In this document: positions 7,899-38,080 of the stretch, in pieces | How the letters are laid out: every line of letters starts with the position of its first letter | How positions within the stretch are numbered: position 1 is the first letter of the stretch | NCBI GenBank assembly: GCA_012521995.1 | Contig: JAAYLH010000048.1 | Location: forward strand, 1 to 62,074 | Source of the DNA: Bacteroidales bacterium | Lineage (GTDB): Bacteria; Bacteroidota; Bacteroidia; Bacteroidales; UBA7960 | Direction: 5' to 3' | Length of the DNA: 62,074 nucleotides | Made by a program: the position numbers and the translations under genes | The notes under the pieces: model-generated | Seen by the model: only the letters and a program-made list of their open reading frames with translations | What the model was told of the DNA's origin: nothing | The model's database searches: none

Positions 7899-8158
7899 TA
7901 TTTAGTATTTGTTTTCAGACCGGAATCAATAATAAAGGTTCTAGTTCACCGGTCTGATGAAAAAGAATGCTTTTTGTTTAAACTTTTAATGGTGGGGAAT
8001 AATATTCCGGAGGTATTGGCAGAATGACTTCTGTCGCATCGACTGTGTGTGCAGCCCTTTATTAACGTTTAAACCTGCCCAATCATCCTGGGACTTTCTG
8101 CCGTTTTCAAAATTTGTTTTTTCGGCAAGGGCAAAGGTATATATAATAACCTTGGCTT

Positions 8159-9214
8159 TTACAAAGTATTGAAAAAGCGGTCCACCAACACCTCTTTGGG
8201 CAAGACAAAAGAATCTTCTGTCAGGAGCTTTCTCATTTGCGAGGCCCAATAGGGTGCCTGGATTACGCCCCTTGATCCCAGTCCGTTGAAGATGGCCAGC
8301 TGGGGGTGGAGGGGGTGGAAACCCAAGATGGGGATCCGGTCTTTAGACACGGGACGCACCCCTGCCCAGTGGTCAACCACATCGTAGGTCACCTTGAGCA
8401 TCCTGTTCAGTTTTTCTTTTAACTCCTGCAAGCCCTGTTTGGTCGGTTCATTGTCGAGGGATTGCTGGCTGTAGTTAGCCCCCACCCGGAATCGCCCCTG
8501 GTCCAGGGGAAGGATAAAGACTTCGTCTCTGAGGATGTATTGCTCTTCAAGTTCGGGAGCAAGGATTTCCAAGACTTCGCCCTTGTTGGCCGAAATCCCA
8601 TATTCCTTGAACCATGGGTTATTGAGGGCTCCGGGGCCTTCACAAAAGACGATGCATTCGGTTGATAGCTTATCGCCGACCCTTACGCTTCCTGCATGGA
8701 GACTTATTTTGGAATAATTGAGCTTCTGTTCAATCAGTAGCCCTTTTCCTCTGAACCACCGGGACAAGGCGTAAACCAGACCGGGGACTTCCACAAAGCC
8801 CGAATTAGTTGTGAGAACAACCGCTTTTCCCGGGTTGAGGCCGGGAAATCCTCCTGCAGGGATGATTTGCAGGATATGATCCTTCAATTCATTTTGCATA
8901 GCCTTTTTCCATTCAGGCATGGTTTGAGGAAGGATTAGCCTGGCAGTAGGGGTTTCAAACAGGAACTTATTTTCCAGCTGCGTTTCAAGTTCCAAATAGG
9001 TGTTTTTCAAGGCAGGAAACAGGAGGTCAAATCGATCGGTCTGTCGTATCTTGCGGGCCACTAGCGGGTGAAACATCCCGGCAGCAGCCTTGGATGCCGT
9101 ATCGGGTAATCCAGGATCCATCACCCGGAAATCCACCCCGTGCTTCCACAGCTCCCAGGCCAGCAAGCTGCCTGCAAGACCCTGTCCGATAATCAATATT
9201 TGAGTATGGATCAA
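8159..9214 (-). CDS. FAD-dependent oxidoreductase of the DAO family
   Basis: A 351-residue flavoprotein related to glycine/D-amino-acid oxidases (DAO fold). The N-terminus carries the FAD-binding Rossmann motif ILIIGQGLAGSLLAWELW (GxGxxG type) followed by an acidic FRVMDPG strand end. The C-terminus has DHWAGVRPVSKDRIPILG and FNGLGSRGVIQAPYWAS, the typical closing FAD contact (GhGsrG). It is cytoplasmic with no signal peptide. Members of this branch have no defined substrate that I know of; amine or amino-acid oxidation is the family expectation. Single gene. Confidence 0.82.
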   Translation of the reverse strand: MIHTQILIIGQGLAGSLLAWELWKHGVDFRVMDPGLPDTASKAAAGMFHPLVARKIRQTDRFDLLFPALKNTYLELETQLENKFLFETPTARLILPQTMPEWKKAMQNELKDHILQIIPAGGFPGLNPGKAVVLTTNSGFVEVPGLVYALSRWFRGKGLLIEQKLNYSKISLHAGSVRVGDKLSTECIVFCEGPGALNNPWFKEYGISANKGEVLEILAPELEEQYILRDEVFILPLDQGRFRVGANYSQQSLDNEPTKQGLQELKEKLNRMLKVTYDVVDHWAGVRPVSKDRIPILGFHPLHPQLAIFNGLGSRGVIQAPYWASQMRKLLTEDSFVLPKEVLVDRFFNTL

Positions 9215-9382
9215 TGTGTGATTATTTTTATAGAATTGGTTTTCAATGTTTAAAGATAATATTTATCAGGGATAATAAAAATACCTCAGGTAAAATCACT
9301 AAAATTATGTAAATGAAGACTTTTAAAAGAACACCAGACGTTTTAGCATAACCGTAAAAGCGGCGAGTAATTGTTTTCGCGG

Positions 9383-10302
9383 CTGAATGGGGAAGTATTC
9401 CGCCATAGAACCCTTTCCCTTTACCACTGAGTGTGCGTTGATAAGCCCTATTCTTTCCGGGATGCCCTTTTTGTGGCACTGGTCGGTCCTCAGGGCTATG
9501 GGTGCATATACGTTGTCCGCGAGGGAATAAACGCCCAGATGAGGGTTCCGGAGCCCTTGATGAAGGGTTCCTCGGCTTTTTGGGATTTTGTTCCTGCATT
9601 AGAAGGAATGCATTTAGGCCGGGCCTTTGAGGATGATGGTCGGTCTTTTCTGAAGCTGAAGGTCAAGCTAAGGTCAAGGAACGTTGCCGTTGGCCTTACG
9701 TATGAATTTTTTATCGAAACCAATGTGGGCAAGTGCTTTTGCCCCCGGAATTCAATGAACTTTCCAGAAAGGAATATATGGTTTGTTTGGATATGCGTAA
9801 TGATTATGAAATCGAAGTCGGTCGTCTTAAGGGTGCCCTTTGCCCGCCCTCTTCCAGCTTCTGCGGAGAGGTGGTGGTGGAACAATTGCCGAATGAGAAA
9901 GACTGCAATATCCAGCTTTATTGCACGGATGGGTTGCACTGTGAGAAGGACAGCGCCAGGATGAGGCACCATGGTTTTCAGGATGGGAGCCAGTTGCATG
10001 GTGGGTGCATTGCCTTTACGGAGGAAGTAAGGAAACACGAGCTTGGTTCGAGGTTTATCGGAAAGAGCTTCGGTTTTGATGAGCATATTGGTGAACGTAT
10101 CATCCCTGATGTTATTTCTTGTTGTTATTCCTGCGGAGAGACCTGTGACATAGATGTCAACTGTGTATACGACCCTTGCCACCGTTTGTTTGTTCAATGC
10201 CAGGGGGGCATCCATTCGTTGAAAGGATGCTGTTGTAAGGAATGTAAGGAGGCCCAGATTCTACAAAAAAGGCTTGAACAATCTGCTTCCTTGGAGGTTT
10301 AA
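9383..10302 (+). pseudogene. trhO: Decayed tRNA uridine-34 hydroxylase TrhO (YceA, rhodanese family)
   Basis: Two plus-strand frames reconstruct TrhO, which makes 5-hydroxyuridine at tRNA position 34. Frame one gives GEVFRHRTLSLYH, an in-frame TGA (9428-9430), then VCVDKPYSFRDALF, IYVVREGINAQM and EDDGRSFLKLKVKLRSRNVA. Frame two (from about 9733) gives PPEFNELSRKEYMVCLDMRN, DYEIEVGRLKGA, the rhodanese active loop YCTDGLHCEKDSA (usually YCTGGIRCEK), FIGKSFGFDEHIGERI and a Cys-rich tail ending about 10290. The frame changes between about 9720 and 9735. With a nonsense codon, a frameshift and substitutions in the active loop, the gene is dead. It ends just before dus. Confidence 0.82.
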
Positions 10303-10335
10303 AAAAAGCACTGATCTTGAAAGGTGCTACAAAAA

Positions 10336-11376
10336 ATGCAGATAGGAAAGCCCCATAATTTCTGGATGACCCATGGCCATCCACTTTTCGCCCTGGCTCC
10401 GATGGAGGATGTCACCGACACGGCTTTCCGCGAGCTGGTGCTGCGGCTGAGCGATCGCGGACAGTTGCACGTGCTTTATACTGAGTTTACATCCACCGAT
10501 GGGCTTTGCCATCCGATTGGCCGCGAGAGGGTGAACCACCGGTTGAAAGTCTCCGAAAGCGAGCGCCAACTTCTCAGGGAAAAGAACGTTAAGATCGTGG
10601 CCCAGGTATGGGGTAACAAGCCTGAGAAGTATTTCCAGGCCATCCGTTATATTGAGGACAACTTTGATTTCGATGGTATCGACATCAATATGGGCTGCCC
10701 GGTGCGCAACGTTGTGGCTCACGGGAGTTGCTCGGCACTTATCAATCAGGAGCCCCTGACAGGGGAAATCATTGCCGCTGCACGTGAAGCGACCAAGTTG
10801 CCTCTGAGCGTAAAGACCCGCCTGGGGGTGAAGCAGGTGGATACTGAGCGCTGGATGCAATTCTTGTTACGGCAACCTTTGCAAGCAATCATTCTCCACG
10901 GGCGTATCCAGAAACAAATGTCGCAGGGTCAGGCAAACTGGGATGAGATTGGCAAGGCCGTGGAGATGCGTGATGAACTGGCGCCGCACATCCGAATCAT
11001 TGGTAACGGGGATGTGGATACAATTGCAGATGGACTTTCGCTTAGCCTGAACTATGGCACGGATGGAGTAATGATCGGCAGAGGAATATTTAAAAATCCC
11101 TGGTTGTTTTCACCTGAAAGGGGAGAAGTTAAGCCGGAAGAAAGAATAAAAACCTTGATGATCCATCTTGATGTATTTGAAAAGAATTGGGGAACTGAAA
11201 AGCATTTTGCTATTCTCAGGCGTTTTTTCAAGATTTATCTGAATGGTTTTCCTGGCGCTGCCGAACTGAGACAGCAGATGATGCAGGTTAACCATTACGC
11301 GGAAGCCCGGATGGTAATCTTAAATTTCAAGCAGGCGATGCAGGAAGGGCAAAATGGAGGACTTGAAGGTTTTTGA
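10336..11376 (+). CDS. tRNA-dihydrouridine synthase
   Basis: A 346-residue FMN enzyme that reduces uridine to dihydrouridine in tRNA D-loops using NADPH. Seen: the N-terminal FALAPMEDVTDTAFRELV motif, FDGIDINMGCPVRNVVAHGS with the catalytic Cys in GCP, KTRLGV, ILHGRIQKQMSQG, IIGNGDV and DGVMIGRGIFKNPWLF, in the family order. The start is taken at ATG 10336; GTG at 10324 and ATG at 10366 (MTHGHPLFALAPM) are alternatives. Known members usually read K.G.GAALM after GCP. This one has AHGSCSALI, a modest deviation. It follows the trhO pseudogene closely, so both may once have been one tRNA-modification unit. Confidence 0.9.
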   Translation: MQIGKPHNFWMTHGHPLFALAPMEDVTDTAFRELVLRLSDRGQLHVLYTEFTSTDGLCHPIGRERVNHRLKVSESERQLLREKNVKIVAQVWGNKPEKYFQAIRYIEDNFDFDGIDINMGCPVRNVVAHGSCSALINQEPLTGEIIAAAREATKLPLSVKTRLGVKQVDTERWMQFLLRQPLQAIILHGRIQKQMSQGQANWDEIGKAVEMRDELAPHIRIIGNGDVDTIADGLSLSLNYGTDGVMIGRGIFKNPWLFSPERGEVKPEERIKTLMIHLDVFEKNWGTEKHFAILRRFFKIYLNGFPGAAELRQQMMQVNHYAEARMVILNFKQAMQEGQNGGLEGF

Positions 11377-11481
11377 TTCAATGATGTTAATAAGACGGGA
11401 GGACGGTTAGTCCATAAGTTAGGTATCTCGCTAATAATCAGCAAGGGCAGCATGAGAAAAGAAAAGTGCTATGGCAGAATT

Positions 11482-11503
11482 GGCCTCTTAGGAGAGGCCT
11501 TTT
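11482..11503 (+). terminator. Rho-independent terminator downstream of dus
   Basis: A 7-bp perfect stem, GGCCTCT (11482-11488) and AGAGGCC (11493-11499), with a 4-nt loop followed by TTTT. It lies about 105 bp after the dus stop and just before the left end of the IS481 element. Confidence 0.6.
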
Positions 11504-11519
11504 AATATGTAATAGACAA

Positions 11520-12841
11520 GACTTGATCTGACAGCGGGGTATTTTTTGCCTATTTTGGCCATGCGTTTTCAGAGGCATTTTCTCTTGGAATGATCTCTGA
11601 AAACAGGGGGCTTAAACGGCCCCCTGGACCATTCCAGTCGGACAGGCTATTCCTGACAGGTTGGTCGCCACCAGAGCCTGTTTCCGCTTGACCTGTCGGG
11701 TTCAAATTTACAACATTTTGGTATTGAGTCTCAAGCATTTTGTTTTTTGCAAGATCAAGTGACTCTTTCCATGTTTGCATTGGTGTTCTGCCAAAGCAAT
11801 ATTTGCCTGAATGGGTTCTTTGATTGTTGTACTCATCCAACCAAACATCCAGATCTTGTTGAAGCTGTTCAATGGAGTTGTAAATCTTTTTTCTGAACGC
11901 CACTGCATAAAACTCATCCTGGATCGTTCGGTGAAAACGTTCGCAAATTCCATTTGTTTGCGGGTGCCGGGCTTTGGTCCTGGTGTGATCAATATCCTCC
12001 ACTGCAAGGTAAAGTTGGTATTCATGGTGTTCCCTTGCCCCACAGAACTCCGTACCTCTGTCGGTGAGAATACGCAGCAGCCTGATGCCACTTTCCTCAA
12101 AGAGAGTTATAACCCTGTCGTTGAGCAGATCTGCGGCCACCAGGGCGTTTTTGCGGTCGTAAAGCTTAGCCTGGGCAATCTTGGAATAAGTATCAATAAA
12201 AGTTTGCTGATAAATCCGCCCTACACCTTTAATGGTTCCAACATAATAGGTGTCTTGTGCTCCCAGGTATCCGGGATGGTAGGTTTCTATTTCACCTTGA
12301 GCCTGCTTTTCTTCCTTGGCTTTTTCAAGGGCGGCTACTTGTGCTTCTGTAAGGATCACGCCTTGATTGGCTGAATGTTTCTCAAGATTCTTAAGGCGCT
12401 TGGAAAACTTCTCTAAGTCATGGCGCAACCAAACCGAACGCACCCCGCCAGGGGAAATGAAAATGCCCTTTTTCCTAAGCTCATTTGAAGCTCTTACCTG
12501 GCCGTAGGCAGGATAAGCCAGTGCAATATTAACCACAGCTTCTTCAACAGCCTCTTCAACACGGTTTTTCATTATTGGCTTCTTGCGGGATATTTCCTGC
12601 AATGCCTCTGGACCGCCATTTTCGTAAAGGTCCTTAAACCGGTAAAAGCTATCCCGGCTAAAGCCAAATATCTTGCACGCTTGAGATACATTGCCCAATT
12701 GTTCGGCAAGATTTAATAATCCTAGCTTGGTTTTGATTAATTTTACTTCTGTATTCATTGTCTGACAGTTTTTGGGGGGTTAAACTTATTTGTGTTTGGA
12801 GATTCAAATTTAGTTTAATTCCCCCACTGTCAGATTAAGTC
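11520..12841 (-). mobile_element. IS481-family insertion sequence, intact, about 1.32 kb
   Basis: One transposase gene is bracketed by terminal inverted repeats. The left end 11520-11539 reads GACTTGATCTGACAGCGGGG. The right end 12822-12841, reverse-complemented, reads GACTTAATCTGACAGTGGGG. That is 18 of 20 positions matching. The transposase is intact, so the element may be active. I could not find a convincing target-site duplication in the flanks (left ...AATAGACAA, right GTGACTAGTT), so the outer borders could be a few bases off. Confidence 0.85.
11550..12758 (-). CDS. IS481-family DDE transposase
   Basis: A 402-residue single-frame transposase. The N-terminal helix-turn-helix reads GNVSQACKIFGFSRDSFYRF, followed by the second DNA-binding part with AYPAYGQVRASNELRKKG. 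Then comes the rve catalytic core with D169 in GAQDTYYVGTIKGVG, D233 in LTDRGTEFCG and E273 in PQTNGICERFHRT, followed by the usual LDVWLDEYNNQRTHSG segment. It is full length with no frameshift. The tail after about 350 (GSGGDQPVRNSLSDWNGPG) is element-specific. It catalyses cut and paste at the flanking repeats. Confidence 0.95.
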   Translation of the reverse strand: MNTEVKLIKTKLGLLNLAEQLGNVSQACKIFGFSRDSFYRFKDLYENGGPEALQEISRKKPIMKNRVEEAVEEAVVNIALAYPAYGQVRASNELRKKGIFISPGGVRSVWLRHDLEKFSKRLKNLEKHSANQGVILTEAQVAALEKAKEEKQAQGEIETYHPGYLGAQDTYYVGTIKGVGRIYQQTFIDTYSKIAQAKLYDRKNALVAADLLNDRVITLFEESGIRLLRILTDRGTEFCGAREHHEYQLYLAVEDIDHTRTKARHPQTNGICERFHRTIQDEFYAVAFRKKIYNSIEQLQQDLDVWLDEYNNQRTHSGKYCFGRTPMQTWKESLDLAKNKMLETQYQNVVNLNPTGQAETGSGGDQPVRNSLSDWNGPGGRLSPLFSEIIPRENASENAWPK

Positions 12842-12939
12842 GTGACTAGTTCATTTAATAAGTTTGAAAGCCTTTATTTCCTTACAGCCATTTCCTTCTT
12901 ATTACCGTTAAAAAAGACACACCGTATTTTCTTGTGAAT

Positions 12940-13878
12940 TTACCGGGTTTCTTTCAGGTACTTGAACAATTCGTTATCGGTAGTCAGGATAATGCTGGTT
13001 TGCTTATCCAATGATTTCTCGAGCGATTCCATAGCCCGAATGAAACTGTACAGGTCTCTTGACATGGCAGAACGGTTGTAAACTGAGGCATAAACTTCTG
13101 TAGCCTTAGCGTCGGCCCGCCCCCTAATCATTTCAGCCTCTTTGACAGCTTCTGATTGGATCTGGGCCAGGTCGCGTTCCTTGTCACCTTCAATTTTCCG
13201 CGCTTCTCCCTGGCCTTCTGAACGAAACTGATCGGCTATACGGTTGCGTTCACTGATCATACGATCATAAACACGCTCCCTTACTTCGGCTACGTAATTC
13301 ATCCGCTTAAAGCGAAAGTCTAATATTACAATCCCCAAGTCAGCTGTCTTTTCATTGGCACGCTGCAGAATCATGGCCTCTATTTTTTCCCGGCCAACGG
13401 TGATGTCTTCCAGAACTTCCAGTTCCTGCAGGTAATCCTCATAGACTTCCGGGATGCGGTTGGTGGAACGAACCAAGTCAAGGAGTTCATGGCTGGCAAT
13501 AGCATTACGGGTCTCCCCATCAAGAATGTCATCGAGGCGCGATTGCCCGCTGCGTTCATCCCGCAGGCGAATAAAAAACTGAAGCGGATCGGTGATTTGC
13601 CAGCGCGCATATGTGTCAACATGAATGAACTTTTTATCTTGCGTGGGTACCTGGTTAGGGTCACCATCCCATTTCAGATACCTTTTATCGAAGTACTGCA
13701 CTTTTTGAATAAAGGGCATTTTATAGTTTAAACCGGGCTCGGTGCGGGCACCGCCAACTGGCTTGCCGAACTGGGTGACTATGGCTTGCTGGGTTTCGTC
13801 AAGGATGAACATGGTGCTCAGGCTTAGAATCAGGATCACCACCAAGGAAACAAGGAGAATAATATGTTTGAGTTTCAT
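12940..13878 (-). CDS. hflC: HflC, SPFH-domain regulator of the FtsH protease
   Basis: A 312-residue membrane-anchored SPFH/band-7 protein that, with HflK, forms a large periplasm-facing assembly around FtsH and modulates membrane-protein turnover. Residues 1-25 form the transmembrane anchor (LKHIILLVSLVVILILSLST), followed by the signature FILDETQQAIVTQFGKPVGG and the coiled SPFH part with VREREVYDRMISERNRIA-like sequence, then a Q/E/A-rich helix with EAEMIRGRADAKATEVYA. I start at ATG 13878 (MKLKHI); the frame continues to 13923 but would overlap hflK. It lies 19 bp after hflK and is co-transcribed with it. Confidence 0.92.
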   Translation of the reverse strand: MKLKHIILLVSLVVILILSLSTMFILDETQQAIVTQFGKPVGGARTEPGLNYKMPFIQKVQYFDKRYLKWDGDPNQVPTQDKKFIHVDTYARWQITDPLQFFIRLRDERSGQSRLDDILDGETRNAIASHELLDLVRSTNRIPEVYEDYLQELEVLEDITVGREKIEAMILQRANEKTADLGIVILDFRFKRMNYVAEVRERVYDRMISERNRIADQFRSEGQGEARKIEGDKERDLAQIQSEAVKEAEMIRGRADAKATEVYASVYNRSAMSRDLYSFIRAMESLEKSLDKQTSIILTTDNELFKYLKETR

Positions 13879-13897
13879 GTCTTTCACTTTTAAGAGG

Positions 13898-14872
13898 TTA
13901 ATCGCTTTGCCTGATTTGGTCAATATTCAGCAAGGGCAAAACATTGGTGCCTTCCTCATCCACAATGATCTTGTTGCCAAGCTTGGGAAGGATGCGTTCC
14001 ATCGTTTCATAATAGAGGCGCTTCTTTGTCACGTCCGGTGCTTTAATGTATTCATTGTAGAGCGAGTTAAAACGGTCGGCTTCCCCGATGGCTCGGTTGA
14101 CGCGGTTCAGGGCATATGCTTCAGCCAGCTGAATGGTTTCCTGGGCTTCACCCCTGGCTCGTGGTATTACCCGGTTGTATTCCGACTCAGCTTGATTAAT
14201 CAGGGTTTCACGTTCCTGCTGTGCTTCGTTCACGGCGTTAAAAGAGGGTTTTACCGGATCGGGTGGGTTGACATCCTGAAGAACTACCTGGTCGATCCTG
14301 ATGCCGTTTTCATATTCGTTGCACATACGCTGAAGCAGGACTTCCACGCTTGAAGCCACTTCCTGACGGCCAACAGTAAGGACTTCATTTACGGTTCTGT
14401 CACCCACAATTTTGCGCATCGCTGCCTCAGACATGTCGTGCAGGGCATCTTCTGCATCGCGGACACGGAAAAGATAATTGTAAGAGTTCACGATGCGATA
14501 TTGGACAACCCATTCCACATCTGCCAGGTTGAGGTCACCAGTCAGCATTAACGATTCATCAATAAAATCGTCTTTTGAATATTGCGAACGACCGCTTGCC
14601 TCAATCGTCCGGAAACCAAATTCCTGCTTAAGTTGTCTTTGGACTGGTATCTTATACATTCTTTCCAGTCCATAAGGCACAATAAAATTCAGGCCAGGTT
14701 GCACCGTCCGGTTATACTTGCCAAGGAATAATACAAGTCCTTCCTGCTCGGGTCCAACCGTTTTAATGGATGTTAGCAAGGCAATCAAGACCAACAGGCC
14801 TATCAGTACCTTTCTTGAATTTTTTTTAATCATTTCCACCATTCTGCGGAACTGAAGTTCTTGTTCGGTCAT
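13898..14872 (-). CDS. hflK: HflK, SPFH-domain partner of HflC
   Basis: A 324-residue SPFH/band-7 protein with one N-terminal transmembrane helix (VLIGLLVLIALLTSI, about 20-35). It is followed by VGPEQEGLVLFLGKYNRTVQ and GLNFIVPYGLERMYKI, then DLNLADVEWVVQYRIVNSYN, and a long helical part with NEAQQERETLINQAESEYNR. The proline-rich N-terminal stretch of proteobacterial HflK is missing, as is common in this phylum. First gene of the hflK-hflC pair. Its substrate is the FtsH protease, not encoded in the window. Confidence 0.93.
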   Translation of the reverse strand: MTEQELQFRRMVEMIKKNSRKVLIGLLVLIALLTSIKTVGPEQEGLVLFLGKYNRTVQPGLNFIVPYGLERMYKIPVQRQLKQEFGFRTIEASGRSQYSKDDFIDESLMLTGDLNLADVEWVVQYRIVNSYNYLFRVRDAEDALHDMSEAAMRKIVGDRTVNEVLTVGRQEVASSVEVLLQRMCNEYENGIRIDQVVLQDVNPPDPVKPSFNAVNEAQQERETLINQAESEYNRVIPRARGEAQETIQLAEAYALNRVNRAIGEADRFNSLYNEYIKAPDVTKKRLYYETMERILPKLGNKIIVDEEGTNVLPLLNIDQIRQSD

Positions 14873-27796: not shown

Positions 27797-29002
27797 ATGT
27801 CAAAAGGCAGGGAAAACAAGCCCCATATAGGGATCTTTGGGCGGCGCAACAACGGGAAGAGCTCGTTTATCAATGCGCTGGCCGGGCAGGATATTGCCAT
27901 TGTTTCGGATGTTCCCGGCACGACAGCCGACCCGGTGCGCAAGTCGATGGAGCTGCCCGGAATCGGACCTGCCATCCTGGTGGACACTGCGGGTATTGAC
28001 GACAGTGGGGAGTTGGGCACCAAACGGGTGAACCGTTCGCTGGCTGCCCTGCGCACCGTGGATATGGCCATACTGCTCATCACCGAAAATTTGTTTGGGG
28101 AGTATGAAGAAAGCCTGGTGGGTTCGTTTCAGGCGCAGGATGTCCCCTTCATGGTGATCCATAACAAATCGGACCTGTATCCCATTTCGCCTGAGCTGCA
28201 GGAGCGGCTGGAACGGGATTATGGCGTAGTTGCCCTTGAGTTTTGCGCGTTGCATCCCTCAAATGTGGAAGAAGTGATTGGCACCTTGCGTAGGGTAATG
28301 CCCGAGACGGCATACACCTCGCGCAGCCTGCTGGGTGACGTCCTTCAGCCGGGAGACCTGGTGCTGCTGATTACGCCTATCGACAGTGAAGCCCCCGAGG
28401 GGCGGATGATCCTGCCGCAGATGCAGGCTGTGCGCGATGTGCTGGATAACGAATGCCCCGTAATCCTGGTCAAGGAAAACGGCCTTGAGGAGCTGCTCAG
28501 GGATCTGAGGCCCAGGCCAAAGCTTGCGGTGACAGACAGCCAGGTCTTTAAAATGGCGGATGCTGCCGTGCCCGAGGATATCATGCTTACCAGCTTCAGC
28601 ATTATGCTGGCGCGCCATAAAGGTGATTTTGAAAACTACCTGAAAGGGACCCCGAAGATCGGGGAGCTGAAAGACGGCGACCGGGTGCTGATCCTTGAGT
28701 CGTGCACCCACCACGTCTCATGCGATGACATCGGGCGTTTCAAGATCCCCAACTGGATGAAGAAATTTACGGGAAAAGACCTGAGTTTTGACGTGGTGGC
28801 AGGTCTGAGCGATACGCCCAGGCCTATCGGCGATTATGCGCTGGTGGTGCAATGCGGCGGATGTGTGATCACTCGCAGGCAGGTCATCGGGCGGTTGAAA
28901 CCCGCAGTGGATGCAGGGGTGCCTGTCACTAATTATGGAATGGCCATTGCCTGGATGCACGGCATCTTTGAACGGGCGGTGGAGCCGTTTTTGAAGGTTT
29001 GA
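27797..29002 (+). CDS. hydF: [FeFe]-hydrogenase H-cluster maturation GTPase HydF
   Basis: A 401-residue scaffold GTPase on which the two-iron subcluster of [FeFe]-hydrogenase is assembled before transfer to the apo-enzyme. The GTPase domain (1-170) shows the P-loop IGIFGRRNNGKSSFINAL (15-22), SDVPGTTADPV, DTAGID and NKSD. The C-terminal cluster domain carries ESCTHHVSCDDIGRFKIP (Cys303, Cys309) and VVQCGGCVIT (Cys353, Cys356), together the iron-sulfur ligand set. Translation start MSKGRENKPHIGIFG is typical. It is bracketed by inverted repeats and followed by hydE 315 bp later. No hydG or hydrogenase is in the window. Confidence 0.96.
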   Translation: MSKGRENKPHIGIFGRRNNGKSSFINALAGQDIAIVSDVPGTTADPVRKSMELPGIGPAILVDTAGIDDSGELGTKRVNRSLAALRTVDMAILLITENLFGEYEESLVGSFQAQDVPFMVIHNKSDLYPISPELQERLERDYGVVALEFCALHPSNVEEVIGTLRRVMPETAYTSRSLLGDVLQPGDLVLLITPIDSEAPEGRMILPQMQAVRDVLDNECPVILVKENGLEELLRDLRPRPKLAVTDSQVFKMADAAVPEDIMLTSFSIMLARHKGDFENYLKGTPKIGELKDGDRVLILESCTHHVSCDDIGRFKIPNWMKKFTGKDLSFDVVAGLSDTPRPIGDYALVVQCGGCVITRRQVIGRLKPAVDAGVPVTNYGMAIAWMHGIFERAVEPFLKV

Positions 29003-29137: not shown

Positions 29138-29317
29138 TGAAATCTAAAAGTCCGGAATTATTTTTCTATGAACATGAAAATGGAATATGGAATTTTGATT
29201 TTTGAGGTTTTTTTGAAATGAATTCCTTTTAGACTATTATTCCATTTTCTTTGCACGCGGCAGACCGTTATTTTTGGTTTTTGGCTTTTTTGTATAATAA
29301 ATTTGAAGACTTTCAAT
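29138..29317. other. Remainder of the hydF-hydE spacer, with a possible hydE -7 box
   Basis: The full spacer between hydF and hydE is 315 bp; its first part is the repeat arm. In the rest I see only TATTTTTG at 29269-29276 on the plus strand, a TAnnTTTG match about 42 nt before the hydE ATG, so hydE probably has its own promoter. Confidence 0.4.
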
Positions 29318-30415
29318 ATGTCCGAACTGATTCAGGAAATATTACAAAAGGAATACCTTGAAAAGGCTGATCTGGTTGCTATGTTGTCAGCAGAGGGAGA
29401 GGATCGGCAACTGTTGTTTGAGCAGGCTGCGGCGGTGAAGGCCGCGTATGTGGGCAACAAGGTGTATTACAGGGGGCTGATCGAGTTTTCGAATATTTGC
29501 GGGAAGAACTGCCTGTATTGCGGCATCCGGGCCGGGAACAAGAATACTCACCGCTACGAAGTGGAGGAACAGGAAGTGCTGGATGCGGCGCGATATGCGT
29601 GGGAGAATAAGTTTGGCAGCCTAGTGCTGCAGTCGGGTGAGCGCTCGGATAAGGCATTTGTGGATCGTATAGAACATCTTTTGCGTGAAATCAAGGCCCT
29701 GAGCAATGGTGAACTGGGCATTACCCTGTCGCTGGGAGAGCAGAGCGAGGAGACCTACCATCGCTGGTTTGAGGCCGGGGGGCACCGTTATCTGCTCCGG
29801 ATTGAGGTATCCAATCCTGAATTATATCCCAAATACCACCCGCACAATAAGAAACACGATTACAGGGCTCGTCTTGACTGCCTGCACTTGTTGCGAAAAG
29901 TTGGCTACCAGGTGGGTTCAGGCGTGATGATCGGGCTGCCCTTCCAGACTGCGGAAGATCTGGCTGATGACCTGATGTTCCTCAGGGAGCACGACATTGA
30001 TATGGTGGGGATGGGGCCTTATATCGAACACGAAGACACTCCCCTCTATAAATACAAAGACAAGTTGCTGCCCAAACAGGAGCGCTTTGATCTGGCCCTG
30101 AAGATGGTAGCCAGCTTGCGCATCATGATGAAGGATATCAATATTGCAGCCACTACGGCGATGCAGACTCTGGATCCGCTGGGTCGTGAAAAGGCCGTAA
30201 AAGTGGGCGCCAATATCATTATGCCCAACCTGACGCCCACGCGTTACCGCGAGGATTACCTGTTGTATGAAGATAAGCCCTGCCTGGATGAGGATGCCGA
30301 CGAGTGCCGGCGCTGCCTTGAGGCCCGCATCCATATGGCAGGGGGTGAAGTGGGCTTTGGTGAATGGGGCGATTCAAAGCATTTTAAAAAGCGGAAAGAG
30401 TCGGGAAATTCTTAA
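29318..30415 (+). CDS. hydE: [FeFe]-hydrogenase H-cluster radical SAM maturase HydE
   Basis: A 365-residue radical-SAM enzyme that takes part in building the dithiomethylamine-bridged two-iron precursor of the H-cluster. Seen: GLIEFSNICGKNCLYCGI with CxxxCxxC (Cys61, 65, 68), LQSGERSD, SLGEQSEETY, GVMIGLPFQTAEDL, MGPYIEHEDTPLY and MPNLTPTRYREDYLLY. A second set of Cys, KPCLDEDADECRRC (CX7CX2C), matches the optional auxiliary cluster site seen in some HydE. Start ATG 29318 is preferred to TTG 29303. Forms a functional unit with hydF. Confidence 0.95.
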   Translation: MSELIQEILQKEYLEKADLVAMLSAEGEDRQLLFEQAAAVKAAYVGNKVYYRGLIEFSNICGKNCLYCGIRAGNKNTHRYEVEEQEVLDAARYAWENKFGSLVLQSGERSDKAFVDRIEHLLREIKALSNGELGITLSLGEQSEETYHRWFEAGGHRYLLRIEVSNPELYPKYHPHNKKHDYRARLDCLHLLRKVGYQVGSGVMIGLPFQTAEDLADDLMFLREHDIDMVGMGPYIEHEDTPLYKYKDKLLPKQERFDLALKMVASLRIMMKDINIAATTAMQTLDPLGREKAVKVGANIIMPNLTPTRYREDYLLYEDKPCLDEDADECRRCLEARIHMAGGEVGFGEWGDSKHFKKRKESGNS

Positions 30416-30478: not shown

Positions 30479-33400
30479 ATGGCCAAAGATAAGTTTTCTT
30501 CAGGGGCCCTTGAAGTGAACCTTGCCAACACACGCAAGGACGATATTACTGTAACGCAAGAGCATCTGGATTTCATCGCCCTTTCGAATGAATACTGGGG
30601 TATACAACAGCGTACCCGTGATTTCTTTCTGGAGTTGAATCACCCTTATGCCAATCATCATTTCCTTGCCGAAGAACTGCGGAAGATCCTTTTGGGCGAC
30701 TTTTGGCTGTATGAAAGCCTGGAGGAGCGGGATCAAGCCTTTGGCCTGATGATCAAAATAGCCGAAGAGCTGCTTGATCAGCCCGTAAAACAAGCTGACC
30801 GTGAGAGTTTGCTGCGGAGCCTGCTTGAGTTTGGTGGCTTGCTCAGAAAAGACGGGCAGGTACAAGCCAAGGGAGTGCTTGCTTTCTTGCTTGACAGGCT
30901 GGAGTTGATTGCCGACAAAGATCCCCTGTTGTTGGTGCGTTGTTCGGGAAGCATCCGCAAGCATTTGGGTGAGCTGGTACAAGATCAGGAATTTGGGGAA
31001 AGAACTTTTGATTTCATCAGAGATGTCGCCCGTAAGAATCTGGATTTCTGGATGGAGAACCACAGCCCGGAGGTGTGGTTTGAGGATAAACGTGAGCTGT
31101 TCTCTAAGGATTATTCCGAACTAATCGGGCAGGTGGGCCTCGGCTGGTTTGCTGAAACTGCCAGAGATCTTGAAAGTTTGGATGTAATGAATGGGTTAGA
31201 GAAACATTTGCCCCTGTATCCTGAGATTTCTGCCCGTTTCCAGGGGCTGATTGAAGGCTTTGAAAAGAACATTGAACGATTTTATTACATCATTTTCCTG
31301 CTGCAGCATCCCGGCCTGGAGGATCAGCGGCATCAGTTGCTCTGGGAGCTGAACAAGATCCTTCGCGACATACACAATGAACTTAAGCCTGATGAGCTGA
31401 CGAGCTTCATCACCAATATCTTCAGCCTGTTTGCCGAACTGAAGGAGCATCATATGGCCACGGTGCTCGATTGCATCCTTACCTTGGGCAAGGAGGTGAT
31501 ACAGGTGAAGGAACGGCGGATCATCAGCTTTTTTGAGAACGAGCTGATCAAACTGGGCTTTGTGGCTCCAGGAGCAGTATATATCCAGGAGAACTGGCAG
31601 ATGAACGTGGACCCCAACCACGTGAAGAACATCAGGGTTTGGCTCGAGCTGATAGAGCATGCCCCCTACACCTTCAGGAAACTGCTCTCGGCCCTGATCG
31701 TTAACCTCAGGCTGGGCGGAATCTTTATATTCGATACCGACCTGTTTCAGCGCGACATCACCAAACTGCTCAACAGCGATATTTCGCCACTATTTAAGCA
31801 AATCAAACAGCTCACCCGTATTTTCCCAGTGTATTTTAATGAAATAGGCGCAGAAGGGGAGTTGCGGGAGGTGACCACCGTGATGGACGAGATCTCGGGG
31901 AGACAGGACAAGCTGATTCATTTCCTGCGCAAGCAAGTGCACATCGAGGGCAATAATACCCACATCGAATTGACGCGGAAGATCTTTCATTTCTGGTACG
32001 ATGGAACGCCCACAGCCCTGAAAGAAATGGTCCCCGCTGATGTCTTTGCTGCCATTGACAAGAACAGCCGGTGGTTTACGGGAGTGCATCACCTAATCCT
32101 CGAGATGAGCAAGGCTAGTCATAGCGGTCCCGGTGACCTGCTGAAGATGAGAGAGGAAGATTTTTATGAACTCCTCGAGGGATGTGAAGGCCATGGAGAG
32201 GATGACAGGAAAAGGCTTAGGCTTTTATTCAGGCTGTATTTCCTGCTCAGTGAGAAATATTCGTTTGAGACTACCGATATTGGGAAGAGCCTGAAGAAGT
32301 ATCGTTTTTTTACCCAGGAAGAGATTGACGGCCTGACGGCACTTCTGGAGGAAGAAAGGCTTGATGATTCGCTGGCAGCGATTTTCGGGTTTATGGAAAG
32401 GCTGAATGAAGTAATCTTTAACCCTGAGTTCAGTGAAGGGTGGGAGAGCATTTACCATAAACGTCATATCGCCTTTGGCATCCCTTCCATGTATGGACAG
32501 TACAGGGAGACCAAGTTTGAGGCGCTGGGCCTTACCTTTAAGCTGGAACGTCTGGCCTCACGTTTGATGGAACAGCGCATTTATGAGTTCAGAGCAGATA
32601 CCATTACGGCGCGTTCGCTCAGGGAGGCATTCTCGATTCTTTCCTTGTTCAGGCATGGGCTTGAACTGGACGGGGTTACAAGCCAGGGCTTCGATTCCAA
32701 CTTGCAGATGCTGCGCTATGGACTGACCTCGGAGAGCTTCTCCCTGCATCAGTTCATTAATTTGTTCCAGTTTATTGCAAAGAACGTGAAGGACATCACC
32801 AACACCTATTTCTTTGGCTTTTACGACCAGCCCCTGCGCATGATCATCCCCCAGGTCTTCGATGCAGAGAGCCTTAAGAATGAGAAGGCCCTTAACCAGC
32901 TTATCCTTGAAAAGTCAGAGTCGTTTTACAGGGAAATCTTGTCATCTTCCTTCCTGATCCAGTTGCTCGACAGTTTTATCAGCAGGGTATTGCACTCGAT
33001 GCGCAATATGGTTGACAACCTGACACCTGAGGTGATTCGTCACATCATGTCGTATGACCCGGCCCTGGTCATAAGTCCGCTCTATGAAGAAAGCCCTAAA
33101 GTCGACAACCAGATCTTTCTGGGTTCAAAGGCATTTTTCCTGAAGAAGCTCTATCTCTGGGGTTTTCCTGTGCCACCGGGTTTTGTGATCACAACAGAGG
33201 TATTCAGGCGAAGGAAGGCCATTATGGCCAGCCCTTCCCTTTCGAAGCAGGTGGATGAACAGGTGCGTTGGCAGCTCAATAGGCTTGAAAAACTAAGCGG
33301 CAAGGGTTTTGGAAATACCCGGAAACCATTGCTGTTGTCGGTTCGCTCTGGCACCGCTATATCGATGCCAGGGGCCATGAACACCTACCTGAACATTGGG

Positions 33401-34588
33401 ATGAACGACAAGATTGTGGAAGCTCTGAGCCAGCAGCCCAATTTTGGCTGGACCTCCTGGGACTGTTACCGCCGCTTGCTCCAGAGCTGGGGGATGACAT
33501 ACGGGATTTCAAGGGATGTGTTTGACCAGGTGATGGTGGACTTTAAGAACAGCTATCAGGTGGATCAAAAGATACAATTCAGCCCAGCCCAGATGCGGGA
33601 GATGGCCTTCGAGTACAAAGAAATCCTGAAGAAACATCAGGTGCATTTTGAGGAAGACCTCTGGAAACAAATCAAACAGGCAATCATGAGTGTGTTTGAT
33701 TCCTGGTCCTCAGATCGTGCCCAGGTGTACCGCAACCACTTGCAGATCGCTGATCTTTGGGGCACTGCTGTCGTGATTCAGCAAATGGTCCTTGGCAATA
33801 TTTCCGAGTATTCGGGCACGGGAGTAGTCTTTACGCACAACCCCCAGATATCGAAGCCAGGAATATATCTAAATGGCGATTTCACTTTGTGCAGCCAGGG
33901 AGAGGATATCGTCGGAGGATTGGTCCATGCACTACCTGTGTCGGTGATCCAGAAAAAAAACGCCGGTCGCGAGCATCAGCCCTCCCTGCAGGAGCATTTG
34001 CCAGCCATTTATAAGCGTTTGTACGAGATTGCCCACGACTTAGTGGAGAAGCATGGCTTTAACCATCAGGAGATAGAGTTTACTTTTGAAAGCAATCAGC
34101 CGGAAGACCTGTACATCCTGCAGGTGCGTGACCAGGATACCCGGAAGACTGAGCGCATCACTGTATTCAGCACAGCAACCGAAAAAATGAGGCTGATGGG
34201 GCGTGGAATCGGCGGTGGTGGGGGAGCAATAAACGGTCGCCTGGCCATTGACATGGAAGATCTGAAGCGGCTCAGGGCGGTTTATCCTGAAGGGGCCTGT
34301 ATTTTGGTGCGCCCCGATACCGTTCCGGATGACATACCCATGATTTTTGATTGCGATGGGCTGGTTACTTCCCGCGGAGGAATTACCTCGCATGCTGCCG
34401 TAACTGCCGCCCGCATGGGAAAGGTATGCGTTTTGAATTGCATCCCCCTGGTGGTGGATGAAAAGTCAAAGGAATGCCACATCAACGGAACGACCTTCAG
34501 ACCAGGGGACCTGATTGCAATAGACGGCTTTTCGGGCAATATTTTTGAAGGGCATTATCCAACTGAACAAGCAGAGATTATTTATTAA
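30479..34588 (+). CDS. PPDK-like ATP-grasp/phosphohistidine protein with a large unassigned N-terminal region and no PEP barrel
   Basis: A 1369-residue soluble protein. From about residue 876 it is unmistakably like pyruvate phosphate dikinase: FLGSKAFFLKKLYLWGFPVP PGF (ATP-grasp entry), then SVRSGTAISMPGAMNTYLNIG (about 954), then the phosphohistidine domain with GLVTSRGGITSHAAVTAARM (His1305) and a short tail ending TEQAEIIY. True PPDK continues with a PEP/pyruvate TIM barrel of about 350 residues; here the protein stops after the His domain. Residues 1-870 are mostly helical (for example LERFYYIIFLLQ-like amphipathic runs) and I recognise no domain. The design suggests ATP gives its phosphate to His1305 and then to an acceptor bound elsewhere. 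The GAPDH-like gene starts 18 bp downstream, so the two are probably co-translated. Reaction unknown. Confidence 0.8.
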   Translation: MAKDKFSSGALEVNLANTRKDDITVTQEHLDFIALSNEYWGIQQRTRDFFLELNHPYANHHFLAEELRKILLGDFWLYESLEERDQAFGLMIKIAEELLDQPVKQADRESLLRSLLEFGGLLRKDGQVQAKGVLAFLLDRLELIADKDPLLLVRCSGSIRKHLGELVQDQEFGERTFDFIRDVARKNLDFWMENHSPEVWFEDKRELFSKDYSELIGQVGLGWFAETARDLESLDVMNGLEKHLPLYPEISARFQGLIEGFEKNIERFYYIIFLLQHPGLEDQRHQLLWELNKILRDIHNELKPDELTSFITNIFSLFAELKEHHMATVLDCILTLGKEVIQVKERRIISFFENELIKLGFVAPGAVYIQENWQMNVDPNHVKNIRVWLELIEHAPYTFRKLLSALIVNLRLGGIFIFDTDLFQRDITKLLNSDISPLFKQIKQLTRIFPVYFNEIGAEGELREVTTVMDEISGRQDKLIHFLRKQVHIEGNNTHIELTRKIFHFWYDGTPTALKEMVPADVFAAIDKNSRWFTGVHHLILEMSKASHSGPGDLLKMREEDFYELLEGCEGHGEDDRKRLRLLFRLYFLLSEKYSFETTDIGKSLKKYRFFTQEEIDGLTALLEEERLDDSLAAIFGFMERLNEVIFNPEFSEGWESIYHKRHIAFGIPSMYGQYRETKFEALGLTFKLERLASRLMEQRIYEFRADTITARSLREAFSILSLFRHGLELDGVTSQGFDSNLQMLRYGLTSESFSLHQFINLFQFIAKNVKDITNTYFFGFYDQPLRMIIPQVFDAESLKNEKALNQLILEKSESFYREILSSSFLIQLLDSFISRVLHSMRNMVDNLTPEVIRHIMSYDPALVISPLYEESPKVDNQIFLGSKAFFLKKLYLWGFPVPPGFVITTEVFRRRKAIMASPSLSKQVDEQVRWQLNRLEKLSGKGFGNTRKPLLLSVRSGTAISMPGAMNTYLNIGMNDKIVEALSQQPNFGWTSWDCYRRLLQSWGMTYGISRDVFDQVMVDFKNSYQVDQKIQFSPAQMREMAFEYKEILKKHQVHFEEDLWKQIKQAIMSVFDSWSSDRAQVYRNHLQIADLWGTAVVIQQMVLGNISEYSGTGVVFTHNPQISKPGIYLNGDFTLCSQGEDIVGGLVHALPVSVIQKKNAGREHQPSLQEHLPAIYKRLYEIAHDLVEKHGFNHQEIEFTFESNQPEDLYILQVRDQDTRKTERITVFSTATEKMRLMGRGIGGGGGAINGRLAIDMEDLKRLRAVYPEGACILVRPDTVPDDIPMIFDCDGLVTSRGGITSHAAVTAARMGKVCVLNCIPLVVDEKSKECHINGTTFRPGDLIAIDGFSGNIFEGHYPTEQAEIIY

Positions 34589-34606: not shown

Positions 34607-35857
34607 ATGACTATGTTGGAGAACAAGAATCTTATCGGAATTAATGGCCTGGGCCGTATCGGCAAGTTGAGTTTGTGGAATCACATTTTCAGGAGGCATT
34701 ATGAGGGGGCGGTGATCAATGTAGGGCGTGAGGTGGGCCGCAGCCTTGAAGATTTGATCCAGGTGATGGGGACCGACTCTACGTATGGAGCCTTGAACCG
34801 TTTCCTATACGGCAGCACAGGGGTAAGCAAAAAGTTTACCATTGTGGATCGCGAGCAGGGGATTGTAGATTTTGATGGATTCCCTATCAAGATTTTGCGT
34901 TCAAATCGTAACCCGCGGGAGATTCGCTGGAAGGAGAATGGAGTGCGCGTGGTGGTAGACTGCACGGGGGTGTTCAATGATCCCGTGGCAGCTGCCGATG
35001 ACATCAAGGGGAGCCTACGCGGGCACCTGGAGGCTGGGGCAAGGAAAGTGATTCTAAGCGCCCCCTTCAAGATTAAGGACAAGACCGCTAAGATGCCTGC
35101 CGACAGCTATATGATGGTATATGGCATTAACCATCTGGGTTATGACCCGGCAGCGCATCACGTCCTCTCGGCAGCGAGTTGCACTACTACGGGCCTTTCG
35201 CATATGATCTACCCTTTGCTGCAAACCCGGGAGACCTCACGCATCCTGACGGCATCCATGTCGACAGTACACGCTGCCACCAACAGCCAAAGTGTCCTGG
35301 ATGCCGTGCCCAAGGCGGCAGCCACTGACCTGAGGAAGACCCGATCCGTGTTTAACAACATCATCCTTTCGACAACTGGAGCAGCTAAGGCCCTTGAAAG
35401 CATCCTCCCCCAGATCCAGGAGATTGGCTTCATGGCCGACTCGGTGCGTATTCCCACCAATACAGTATCTTTGATCATCCTGAACATTACTTTTAGCTCA
35501 CAGTTGAACGACAAGGGCGAACCAGTGATAAACCAGCAGTTTCTGAATGGAATCTACCAGAAAGCCTCCCTGGGCCCCCAGAAGGACTTGCTGATATTCA
35601 GTGAGCAGCAAAACGTATCGGCCGATTTGATGGGTTTCCCCGCTTCGGTCGTGATAGAGGGGCACGAGACCCATACCCGCACAGGATTTATCAATCTGCC
35701 CGAAAGCCTGATGGAGTCGATGGGGGTAAAAGCAGAAAAAGACCTTCACTTGCCTGTAACCCATGCAAAAATATTTGGATGGTACGACAATGAATACGGC
35801 AGTTATGTGAGCAGCCTGGGCAAACTGGCTGTATACGTGGATCAGAACCTGAAATAA
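34607..35857 (+). CDS. Divergent glyceraldehyde-3-phosphate dehydrogenase-like protein
   Basis: A 416-residue GAPDH-fold protein, about 80 residues longer than ordinary GAPDH. The NAD-binding start reads LIGINGLGRIGKLSLWNHIF. The active site has Cys192 in SAASCTTTGLSHM (usual SCTTN) and His222 in MSTVHAATNSQSV (usual TVHAYTNDQ). Later parts are STTGAAKALESILPQI, RIPTNTVSLIILN and the closing GWYDNEYGSYVSSLGKLAVY. The catalytic Cys-His pair is kept, so oxidoreductase activity on an aldehyde is plausible. The replaced Asn and the insertion near 300-350 suggest a changed substrate pocket. A ribosome-binding AAGGA lies 6-10 bp before the ATG. Linked to the upstream PPDK-like gene. Confidence 0.88.
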   Translation: MTMLENKNLIGINGLGRIGKLSLWNHIFRRHYEGAVINVGREVGRSLEDLIQVMGTDSTYGALNRFLYGSTGVSKKFTIVDREQGIVDFDGFPIKILRSNRNPREIRWKENGVRVVVDCTGVFNDPVAAADDIKGSLRGHLEAGARKVILSAPFKIKDKTAKMPADSYMMVYGINHLGYDPAAHHVLSAASCTTTGLSHMIYPLLQTRETSRILTASMSTVHAATNSQSVLDAVPKAAATDLRKTRSVFNNIILSTTGAAKALESILPQIQEIGFMADSVRIPTNTVSLIILNITFSSQLNDKGEPVINQQFLNGIYQKASLGPQKDLLIFSEQQNVSADLMGFPASVVIEGHETHTRTGFINLPESLMESMGVKAEKDLHLPVTHAKIFGWYDNEYGSYVSSLGKLAVYVDQNLK

Positions 35858-36029
35858 TCCAGCAGTTGCTTTAAATAGCTGAATGGATTTCGTTTGCGAA
35901 AAGCAATCATTCCGCTGAAATGCGTAATTTTGTGCCGCCTGCGCAAAGGGGGTTCCCCGGAGTGCAAGGAGAATATTATCGTTACCGAAAGCAAATTATA
36001 ATTATTAATAACCATTTTTGAATTTTAAG

Positions 36030-37253
36030 ATGAAGGACGCAAGAAGACCTGATGTTGAGGTTCTGGACATTACCAGCGATGTGAAGTGGATTGGCATTCT
36101 CGATTATGACATTGTTACGTTTGACGTGGTGATGGAGACTGAATATGGGACGACATACAATTCGTATTTTATCAATGCTGAGAAAAAGGCCATTGTTGAG
36201 ACTTCCAAGGAGAAGTTCTGGGATGTTTACCTCGAAAAGATCAAAAAGGTGACTGACCCTGCCGATATTGAATACATCATCCTCAACCACACCGAGCCTG
36301 ACCATAGCGGGAACCTGGGCAATATGCTTGCACTTGTCCCCAATGCAACGGTGGTAGGTAGCCGACTGGCTATCAGCTACCTAAAGGATTTCCTCGGGAA
36401 GGAATTCAAGCACATTGTCGTCAAGGACGGAGACACTATTGACTTGGGCAACAAGACCCTGCGCTTTATTTCGGCGCCCAACCTACACTGGCCCGACAGC
36501 ATGTACACCTATCTTGAGGATGATAAGCTGTTGTTTACCTGTGATTCCTTTGGCTGCCATTATGCCCACCATAAGATGTATGACGACCAGGTTGGCGATT
36601 TCGCGGATGCTTTTAAATATTATTTTGATGTGATCCTGAAGCCTTTCAGCAAGTTTATGCTGAAGGCCATAGAGAAGATCCGCCCGCTGGATATCAGTGC
36701 CGTGCTAACGGGACACGGACCCTTGCTGATGAAAGACTGGAAGAAGTGGGTGGACCTGTCAGAAAAATTTGCCACAGATGCCCTGGAAACTCCTCAGAAG
36801 GATTATGTGTTCATCCCCTATGTCTCAGCGTACCACAACACAGGCAAGCTGGCTGAAGCCATTGCAGAGGGCATTCAAAGTACCGGTGACTTTACCGTGG
36901 AGGTAGCAGATATTGAGGCCATGCCACTGGGGGACGTAGATGAGCGGGTGGCGCGTAGCAGCGGCATCGTAGTGGGTTGTCCGACAATCAACCAGAATAT
37001 CCTGCTGCCGATTTATAAATTGTTTGCAGTGATCAGTCCCATCAGAGATAAAGGCAAAGTGGCAGGCTCTTTTGGTTCATTTGGCTGGAGCGGTGAAGCA
37101 GGCAAACTGATCAATGGCAACCTATCGAACCTCAAACTCGATGTTCAGGGTGATGGGGTATTTGTGAAATTTACACCCCACGAGAGCGAGTACCAACAGT
37201 GCTTTGATTACGGCAAGTTGATCGGGGAGAAGATTCTGGGGAAAACCATTTGA
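36030..37253 (+). CDS. Flavodiiron protein (FprA-type A flavoprotein), O2/NO reductase
   Basis: A 407-residue enzyme that reduces oxygen to water, or nitric oxide to nitrous oxide, protecting oxygen-sensitive metabolism. The metallo-beta-lactamase-like diiron domain has H87-x-E89-x-D91-H92 in [11 protein letters not shown], His153 in PNLHWPDSM, Asp172 in [11 protein letters not shown] and His229 in LTGHGPLLM, a complete ligand set. The C-terminal flavodoxin domain starts with [20 protein letters not shown] and contains [14 protein letters not shown] and [15 protein letters not shown]. No rubredoxin domain is fused. Start ATG 36030 ([12 protein letters not shown]). Upstream TAATTTTG (35925-35932) may be its -7 box. 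The next gene starts inside the stop (TTGA). Confidence 0.95.
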
Positions 37254-38080
37254 ATTTAAGAAGATTCATATTACTGAGCATCCTTACGGTTTTCCTGCCT
37301 TCATGTGGCAGCCAGCGAAAACTGGCGCTTGAATTTTTCAGGGAGCAGGAGGAAATTCACGTGCTCCTGCTTCCTCCTCAGGAGATCCTGAAAAAATATT
37401 TCCCCATTCACCCCGACAGTATTGTTGGCAACGACTACGACCCCTTTGTGCTTGAGCACAGCAAGTTCATCAAGGAAGCTGAAGATTCCGTGCTTCTTGC
37501 CTTGTTTATGTCATCACTCAAGCAGAGTCTGGAAGCCTTTGAGGTAAAGGTTTATGGCCCAGCCGACATGCAGGACTTCCTCAATCTCGACACTTCAGCT
37601 TATGTCTTCTCGTTGGCGCAACTGGAGTTGATGGAATATCTTCATGAAGAGATACGATATGCCCTACTTGATACTACCTTATACGAAGTGGCCTTCAACC
37701 CGGTGAACCTGGTGCATAGCCAGTGGTTTGAGTTTACTGAGCTGAACCATCCCGAACGGCCGATGCAGGTGTTGTACAGTGCTCAGTATACAGGTGATGT
37801 GTTTGACGGCAAGTTCAGGCATAACTTTTTGACAGGGGAGATGACCTATGAGTTTCAGCCTTACCGGATAGGTTTAGGGGATGTCTATCAACTCAGCATT
37901 TTTGCAGGGGAGAAAAATGCCCAGTTTATCTTTGATTTTCTGTTGAACAAATACGTGGATGACCGGATACGAAAACCACGCAGGATGGTAGATTATTTGC
38001 AATACGACCGCCTGGAAAACAACATTCGTCGTGCTTACGATGACCGCTTCATCCGAATCAACCCTTCGAGAGCGGATTAA
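37250..38080 (+). CDS. Hypothetical lipoprotein coupled to the flavodiiron gene
   Basis: A 276-residue exported lipoprotein with a lipobox in [13 protein letters not shown] (Cys19). I do not recognise a family. The rest is mixed alpha/beta with [19 protein letters not shown], then [20 protein letters not shown] and a tail ending [20 protein letters not shown]. It starts with TTG at 37250, overlapping the TGA of the flavodiiron gene by four bases, so translation is probably coupled. It ends by overlapping tsaD tail to tail by 4 bp. A role at the envelope is all that can be said. Confidence 0.65.

Follow-up and report, generated by a model that had tools for sequence, protein, structure and literature searches.

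The enzymes of the pyruvate, phosphate dikinase (PPDK) family are modular. Glucan, water dikinase, a member of the same superfamily, has a long N-terminal substrate-binding part with starch-binding modules, and its histidine domain lies before the nucleotide domain. In rifampin phosphotransferase, the barrel is replaced by another, largely helical acceptor domain, which is served by a swivelling histidine (PMC4844700). VadK (Rv1127c) of Mycobacterium tuberculosis consists of the PPDK ATP-grasp and histidine domains without a barrel, and autophosphorylates on His422 (PMC12636432). Here, we describe a giant PPDK-like protein, referred to as PPDKL, encoded at positions 30479-34588 of a 62,074-nucleotide stretch of Bacteroidales DNA (contig JAAYLH010000048.1, the whole of which is called the window). 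PPDKL is coupled to glyceraldehyde-3-phosphate dehydrogenase (GAPDH), and probably drives or controls the GAPDH step by an undescribed route. The elements of the gene are as follows.

30479..34588, + strand: PPDKL, 1369 stop-free codons from an ATG start; orthologues share length and domain order
30479..33103, + strand: N-terminal region, residues 1-875, all-alpha and of no known family (no Pfam or PDB sequence match; AlphaFold2 model)
31595..31966, + strand: conserved core block A, residues 373-496 (conservation profile; 40-sequence cross-phylum alignment)
32429..32548, + strand: conserved core block B, residues 651-690, which holds a hairpin at 655-676 (conservation profile; the same alignment; model)
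33104..34135, + strand: ATP-grasp domain, residues 876-1219 (PF01326; phmmer to PPDK; structural match to 1kbl; ATP-site residues invariant)
34130..34204, + strand: short linker, 25 residues (57 in PPDK)
34193..34579, + strand: phosphohistidine (swivel) domain, residues 1239-1367 (PF00391; match to 2fm4, Z 15.9)
34391..34393, + strand: codon of His1305, equivalent to PPDK His455 (alignment; invariant in 40/40 sequences)

The only Pfam matches of PPDKL are PPDK_N (PF01326, residues 921-1225, E 8e-29) and PEP-utilizers (PF00391, the phosphohistidine domain, residues 1273-1353, E 4e-15), with no match to PF02896, the phosphoenolpyruvate (PEP)/pyruvate barrel. Residues 16-339 and 387-517 of C. symbiosum PPDK align by phmmer with PPDKL 878-1219 and 1235-1367 (E 2e-73; the two domains are 30-33% identical), placing H1305, within the motif RGG(x)TSHAAV, on PPDK His455. 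The predicted structure of residues 175-1369 (mean pLDDT 85.8) superposes on residues 2-518 of PPDK 1kbl with Z 40.9 and a root-mean-square deviation (rmsd) of 2.4 Å over 481 residues, and PPDKL ends at PPDK position 518, where the barrel would start. Crystal forms such as 1kbl and 1dik, whose histidine domain faces away from the ATP site, fit the model at 2.4 Å, closer than 2r82 at 14.3 Å. All 40 family members compared, drawn from several phyla, retain the equivalents of PPDK K22, R92, E323, Q335, R337 and H455; the equivalent of D321 is E1198 in PPDKL and is Glu throughout the 40 sequences. The linker R1217-G1243 is 25 residues long in 38/40 family members, compared to 57 in 10 PPDKs; hence, the domain swing in PPDKL must differ from that of PPDK. 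A first-pass annotation of this DNA had placed ATP-grasp motifs and the phosphohistidine H1305 in residues 876-1369, noted the absence of the PEP barrel, and left about 870 N-terminal residues unassigned, all of which is borne out. It also expected ATP to charge the histidine and the acceptor to be something other than pyruvate, in keeping with the invariant ATP-site and histidine residues and the missing barrel. It is thus very probable that PPDKL is a functional phosphotransfer chassis, in which His1305 would be charged by ATP. The same genome also encodes an intact PPDK of 949 amino acids, its only PF02896 protein; with this complete canonical enzyme present, the organism probably already makes use of PPi-linked phosphotransfer.

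No Pfam family and no PDB sequence matched residues 1-870. In an AlphaFold2 model of residues 1-885 (mean pLDDT 82.7, pTM 0.71), the only departures from an all-helical fold are a long beta hairpin at 655-676 and several very short strands. This rules out a PEP barrel hidden within this region, a finding that would have counted against the first-pass annotation by its own criterion. A fold search with the N-terminal model returned generic helical repeats only (Foldseek TM <0.2; VIA Z <=11 at 16 Å rmsd), and these matches are uninformative; a scan of viral contigs yielded no relative of the region. The N-terminal part can be divided into a less conserved, solenoid-like portion (residues ~1-360) and a conserved core that contains blocks A and B. 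Invariant residues in block A are R386, D419, D421, Q424, E459, R463, D470, D477, H481, R484, K485, H488, E490 and N492, and those in block B are K661, R662, H663, S670, Y672 and E677, with E656 also listed as conserved. In the cross-phylum alignment, the conservation of charged residues in this core is as strict as that of the ATP site. Judged by sequence, blocks A and B look like a substrate or docking site.

These features set PPDKL apart from each of the described systems. From PPDK it differs in having an 870-residue helical N-terminal part and no C-terminal PEP/pyruvate TIM barrel, as well as in the linker and the D321 substitution, and its score against the PPDK model TIGR01828 (359.2 bits) does not reach the cut-off of 843.45. 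Scores against the PEP synthase models NF005057 (83.7 bits, cut-off 598) and TIGR01418 (70 bits, cut-off 739.75) and against the rifampin phosphotransferase model NF041857 (32.9 bits, cut-off 999) likewise fall short, as does that against NF004531/PRK05878, presumably the VadK family model (269 bits for NF004531, cut-off 456). By the tests run, PPDKL is therefore not PPDK, PEP synthase, rifampin phosphotransferase or VadK. Its order of ATP-grasp followed by histidine domain is the reverse of that in glucan, water dikinase, and Pfam detected no carbohydrate-binding module. Rifampin phosphotransferase is a structural match to the PPDKL model (Z 23), but its acceptor domain lies between the ATP-grasp and histidine domains, whereas the extra region of PPDKL precedes the ATP-grasp domain, and there is no sequence match between rifampin phosphotransferase and that N-terminal part. 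PPDKL shares with VadK the ATP-grasp and histidine domains without a barrel; however, VadK is a stand-alone protein of ~50 kDa tied to the methylcitrate cycle, whereas PPDKL has 1369 amino acids, including the 870 extra N-terminal residues, and is tied to GAPDH. A histidine-charging PPDK relative without a barrel does have a precedent in VadK (PMC12636432).

At least 279 PPDKL-family loci were found in named genome records, and 80 of these relatives were kept. They are mostly Bacteroidales metagenome assemblies, with some labelled Cloacimonadota, Calditrichota, Chloroflexota, Geobacteraceae and Bacillota. Within the order, the family occurs in 33/393 genomes. Own genome aside, close orthologues of equal length turned up in 9 of 58 relatives searched; full-length orthologues with identical architecture share 38-69% identity. 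The phylum to which the Cloacimonadota relative belongs has PPDKL in 50/125 genomes, one of which consists of one large contig (2,246,820 bases), and overall identity there is down to 38-48%. PPDKL is almost absent from an even phylum-wide sample, which gave, besides the own genome, one 60-residue match at E 6e-4. The recurrence of the architecture rules out a chance fusion or assembly artefact, and PPDKL constitutes a real, widespread and apparently undescribed family, a new variant within the PPDK superfamily.

Directly downstream of PPDKL lies the gene of a GAPDH-family enzyme, GapX.

34607..35857, + strand: GapX, a divergent 416-amino-acid GAPDH-family enzyme (PF00044/PF02800; alignment to 1vc2; co-occurrence; cross-phylum adjacency)

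GapX starts 18 bp past the PPDKL stop codon and is preceded by an AAGGA motif. Like type I GAPDH, it has both GAPDH domains and, by alignment to 1vc2, keeps the catalytic residues (Cys192 and His222). Unlike type I GAPDH, it is ~80 residues longer, has ASCTTT in place of ASCTTN and has lost the usual NAD-specifying Asp (INVGRE); its score against TIGR01534 (290 bits) is below the cut-off of 367. Some NADP-linked anabolic GAPDHs likewise lack this Asp, and its loss hints that GapX is possibly NADP-linked and biosynthetic.

Inspection of relatives, which the first-pass annotation had proposed, revealed GAPDH as the commonest neighbour of PPDKL: it lies within the fetched flank (<=10 kb) at 63/81 loci and is the immediate neighbour at 50/81, compared to 22/81 for the runner-up family. 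Several of the 18 loci without GAPDH in the flank are cut by contig ends. The PPDKL partners form three monophyletic GAPDH clades that differ in layout, with GapX downstream, a variant GAPDH upstream in the same direction, or a canonical GAPDH divergently transcribed. The variant clade (L081, L082, L084, L095 and L113, where the gene is upstream of PPDKL, as well as L186 and L187) carries TTTSAIRT instead of TTTGAAKA in the phosphate-binding loop and precedes PPDKL by anything from a few to some tens of bases. Some operons hold two GAPDHs, in the order variant GAPDH-PPDKL-GapX. Mapping the layouts on the PPDKL tree requires 12 changes; the linkage to GAPDH has therefore persisted while partner and orientation switched. 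Across the order, GapX occurs in 19/393 genomes, all 19 of which are among the 33 that carry PPDKL (hypergeometric 8e-24, with kinship of genomes not corrected; 11 families are nested in 16). Among loci sampled from the Cloacimonadota relative's phylum, GapX adjoins PPDKL at all 19 that extend past the gene, for instance 35 bp downstream at L176. Furthermore, PPDKL and GapX distances correlate with r 0.95. We are hence highly confident that PPDKL is functionally coupled to GAPDH, a link for which no published account was found in the open literature, where most subscription papers are missing.

Given this anatomy, the invariant sites and the coupling to GAPDH, our favoured yet tentative explanation casts PPDKL as a partner of GAPDH, namely an ATP-dependent histidine phosphotransferase with its acceptor at the GAPDH step. 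The first-pass annotation had left three kinds of candidate acceptor, metabolites, proteins and the N-terminal region of PPDKL; that the acceptor is not pyruvate agrees with our findings. The strongest clue, which it missed, is the neighbouring GAPDH gene together with its co-occurrence across phyla, and this narrows the choice to the GAPDH step. In the proposed mechanism, the ATP-grasp domain would transfer the beta-phosphoryl group of ATP to His1305 and release AMP, probably with PPDK-type use of inorganic phosphate (Pi) and release of pyrophosphate (PPi), judging from the intact PPDK residues and from VadK. The small domain would then swing over to the helical core of the N-terminal part, in which an acceptor site made up of blocks A and B would replace the PEP barrel; their invariant charged and phosphate-binding-type residues are as expected of an active site. 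Because of the GAPDH link, the acceptor is placed at that step, and would most likely be the phosphoglycerate/acyl-phosphate. Overall, this would amount to 3-phosphoglycerate + ATP (+ Pi) <-> 1,3-bisphosphoglycerate (1,3-BPG) + AMP + PPi, with 1,3-BPG feeding GapX or other GAPDHs towards glyceraldehyde-3-phosphate. Alternatively, the reverse reaction may run, yielding ATP from AMP + PPi.

In the direction of 1,3-BPG, textbook standard free energies give ~+4 kJ/mol for the ATP to AMP + PPi route compared to ~+19 kJ/mol for phosphoglycerate kinase (PGK). The pair 3-phosphoglycerate/1,3-BPG is favoured since the AMP + PPi reaction is near equilibrium and since GapX has lost the NAD-specifying Asp; with such energetics, PPDKL would serve this gluconeogenic step as PEP synthase/PPDK serves the conversion of pyruvate to PEP. 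We consider phosphoglycerate/1,3-BPG a possible acceptor, though a little more guardedly than the explanation as a whole, and it is doubtful that PPDKL is specifically a PPi-linked 'phosphoglycerate dikinase' paired with its own GapX, as an alternative to PGK in many uncultured anaerobes. If the acceptor site is new and tied to GAPDH, lower glycolysis/gluconeogenesis gains an unrecognised ATP-to-AMP/PPi-linked step in Bacteroidales, Cloacimonadota and other uncultured anaerobes or, alternatively, GAPDH has an unrecognised dedicated kinase. Either outcome would be surprising for a pathway thought complete. The family is a candidate for a novel reaction at GAPDH, or for a novel control of it, and is open to test as such.

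Several observations weigh against a phosphotransferase with its acceptor at the GAPDH step. An ordinary PGK is present in 32 of the 33 PPDKL genomes of the order, so there is no pathway gap to fill; the own genome and 9/11 distant genomes also have PGK. At L078 there is no GAPDH near PPDKL despite a 10 kb flank on each side, and in G724 GapX lies 0.86 Mb from PPDKL. A helical-repeat region is equally typical of protein recognition and of metabolite binding. Furthermore, VadK, the known relative without a barrel, is reported as regulatory (PMC12636432).

The main rival is a regulatory histidine (di)kinase acting on GAPDH, in which the helical solenoid would bind GAPDH and the charged histidine would phosphorylate or allosterically control it according to the ATP/AMP/PPi state. 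A GAPDH-binding protein would directly explain why three GAPDH clades serve as partners. In addition, helical repeats of the protein-binding kind resemble the N-terminal model, and VadK, besides its autophosphorylation, interacts with methylcitrate-cycle enzymes (PMC12636432). However, two polar blocks hold most of the conservation, at a strictness equal to that of the ATP site, which is more like a catalytic pocket, and no invariant GAPDH residue was identified as a phosphorylation site. We regard this rival as somewhat unlikely. It is unlikely, more clearly so, that PPDKL phosphorylates a different small molecule (glyceraldehyde, dihydroxyacetone or glycerate, for example) that feeds the GAPDH step. 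The chassis and the GAPDH linkage speak for this too, and rifampin phosphotransferase shows that the chassis can take an unrelated acceptor on a helical domain (PMC4844700), but the genes beside PPDKL include no recurrent transporter or dehydrogenase that would handle such a substrate, and triose kinases are usually peripheral, whereas the PPDKL family pairs with core GAPDH genes.

Alternatively, His1305 might be charged and then serve an acceptor in trans, be it the barrel of the stand-alone PPDK or some other protein, leaving the N-terminal part a mere scaffold. Swivel domains in this family are mobile, and the genome does offer one PF02896 protein; however, this is a complete PPDK with no need of a donor, the pairing of PPDKL is with GAPDH and not with PPDK, and the invariance of blocks A and B would be unneeded, making an acceptor in trans improbable. 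The missing barrel and the shortened hinge could also suggest a PPDK in decay, or a chimera, that lacks phosphotransfer activity, which is highly improbable given the invariance of the ATP-site and histidine residues over several phyla, the fixed length and domain order, and strict co-inheritance with GapX.

The remaining neighbours of PPDKL and GapX in the window include hydrogenase-maturation genes and a flavodiiron gene.

27797..29002, + strand: hydF, [FeFe]-hydrogenase maturation GTPase (TIGR03918 above cut-off; 8/81 loci)
29303..30415, + strand: hydE, [FeFe]-hydrogenase maturase (TIGR03956 above cut-off; 9/81 loci)
36018..37253, + strand: flavodiiron protein, FprA-like (PF19583 + PF00258)

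These three genes lie beside PPDKL only in the window's own lineage. A role of PPDKL in hydrogenase maturation or with the flavodiiron protein was rejected, as these neighbours are lineage-specific and absent around two close orthologues (L067 and L074), where GapX stays beside PPDKL even without hydE/hydF. At these two loci, a small related gene pair (~142 and ~145 amino acids) is located upstream of PPDKL on the opposite strand. In the window, a gene for a 276-residue predicted lipoprotein-like protein (37250-38080) is located between the flavodiiron gene and tsaD, and diverges fast (34-47% identity) within an otherwise conserved block.

Substitution of PPDKL for a missing PGK is ruled out, as the carriers have PGK. 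A divergent PGK, PgkX, was considered as a third partner and found to be uncoupled: it occurs in 51/393 genomes, 7 of them with PPDKL compared to ~4 expected. PgkX (L158:9680-10990, and L159-L166) is ~430 amino acids long with the motifs VRVDHNVVKKG, AGSKFDTKI and GGGDTMQELK, and is the sole PGK in G688. Lastly, locus L035 (G000:C123) encodes on the + strand tandem proteins of 1193 and 992 amino acids (7464-11045 and 11042-14020), flanked by two glutamate dehydrogenase genes. Both have PPDK_N domains and receiver-like N-terminal parts without PF02896, and the pair represents a further ATP-grasp PPDK relative beside a dehydrogenase.

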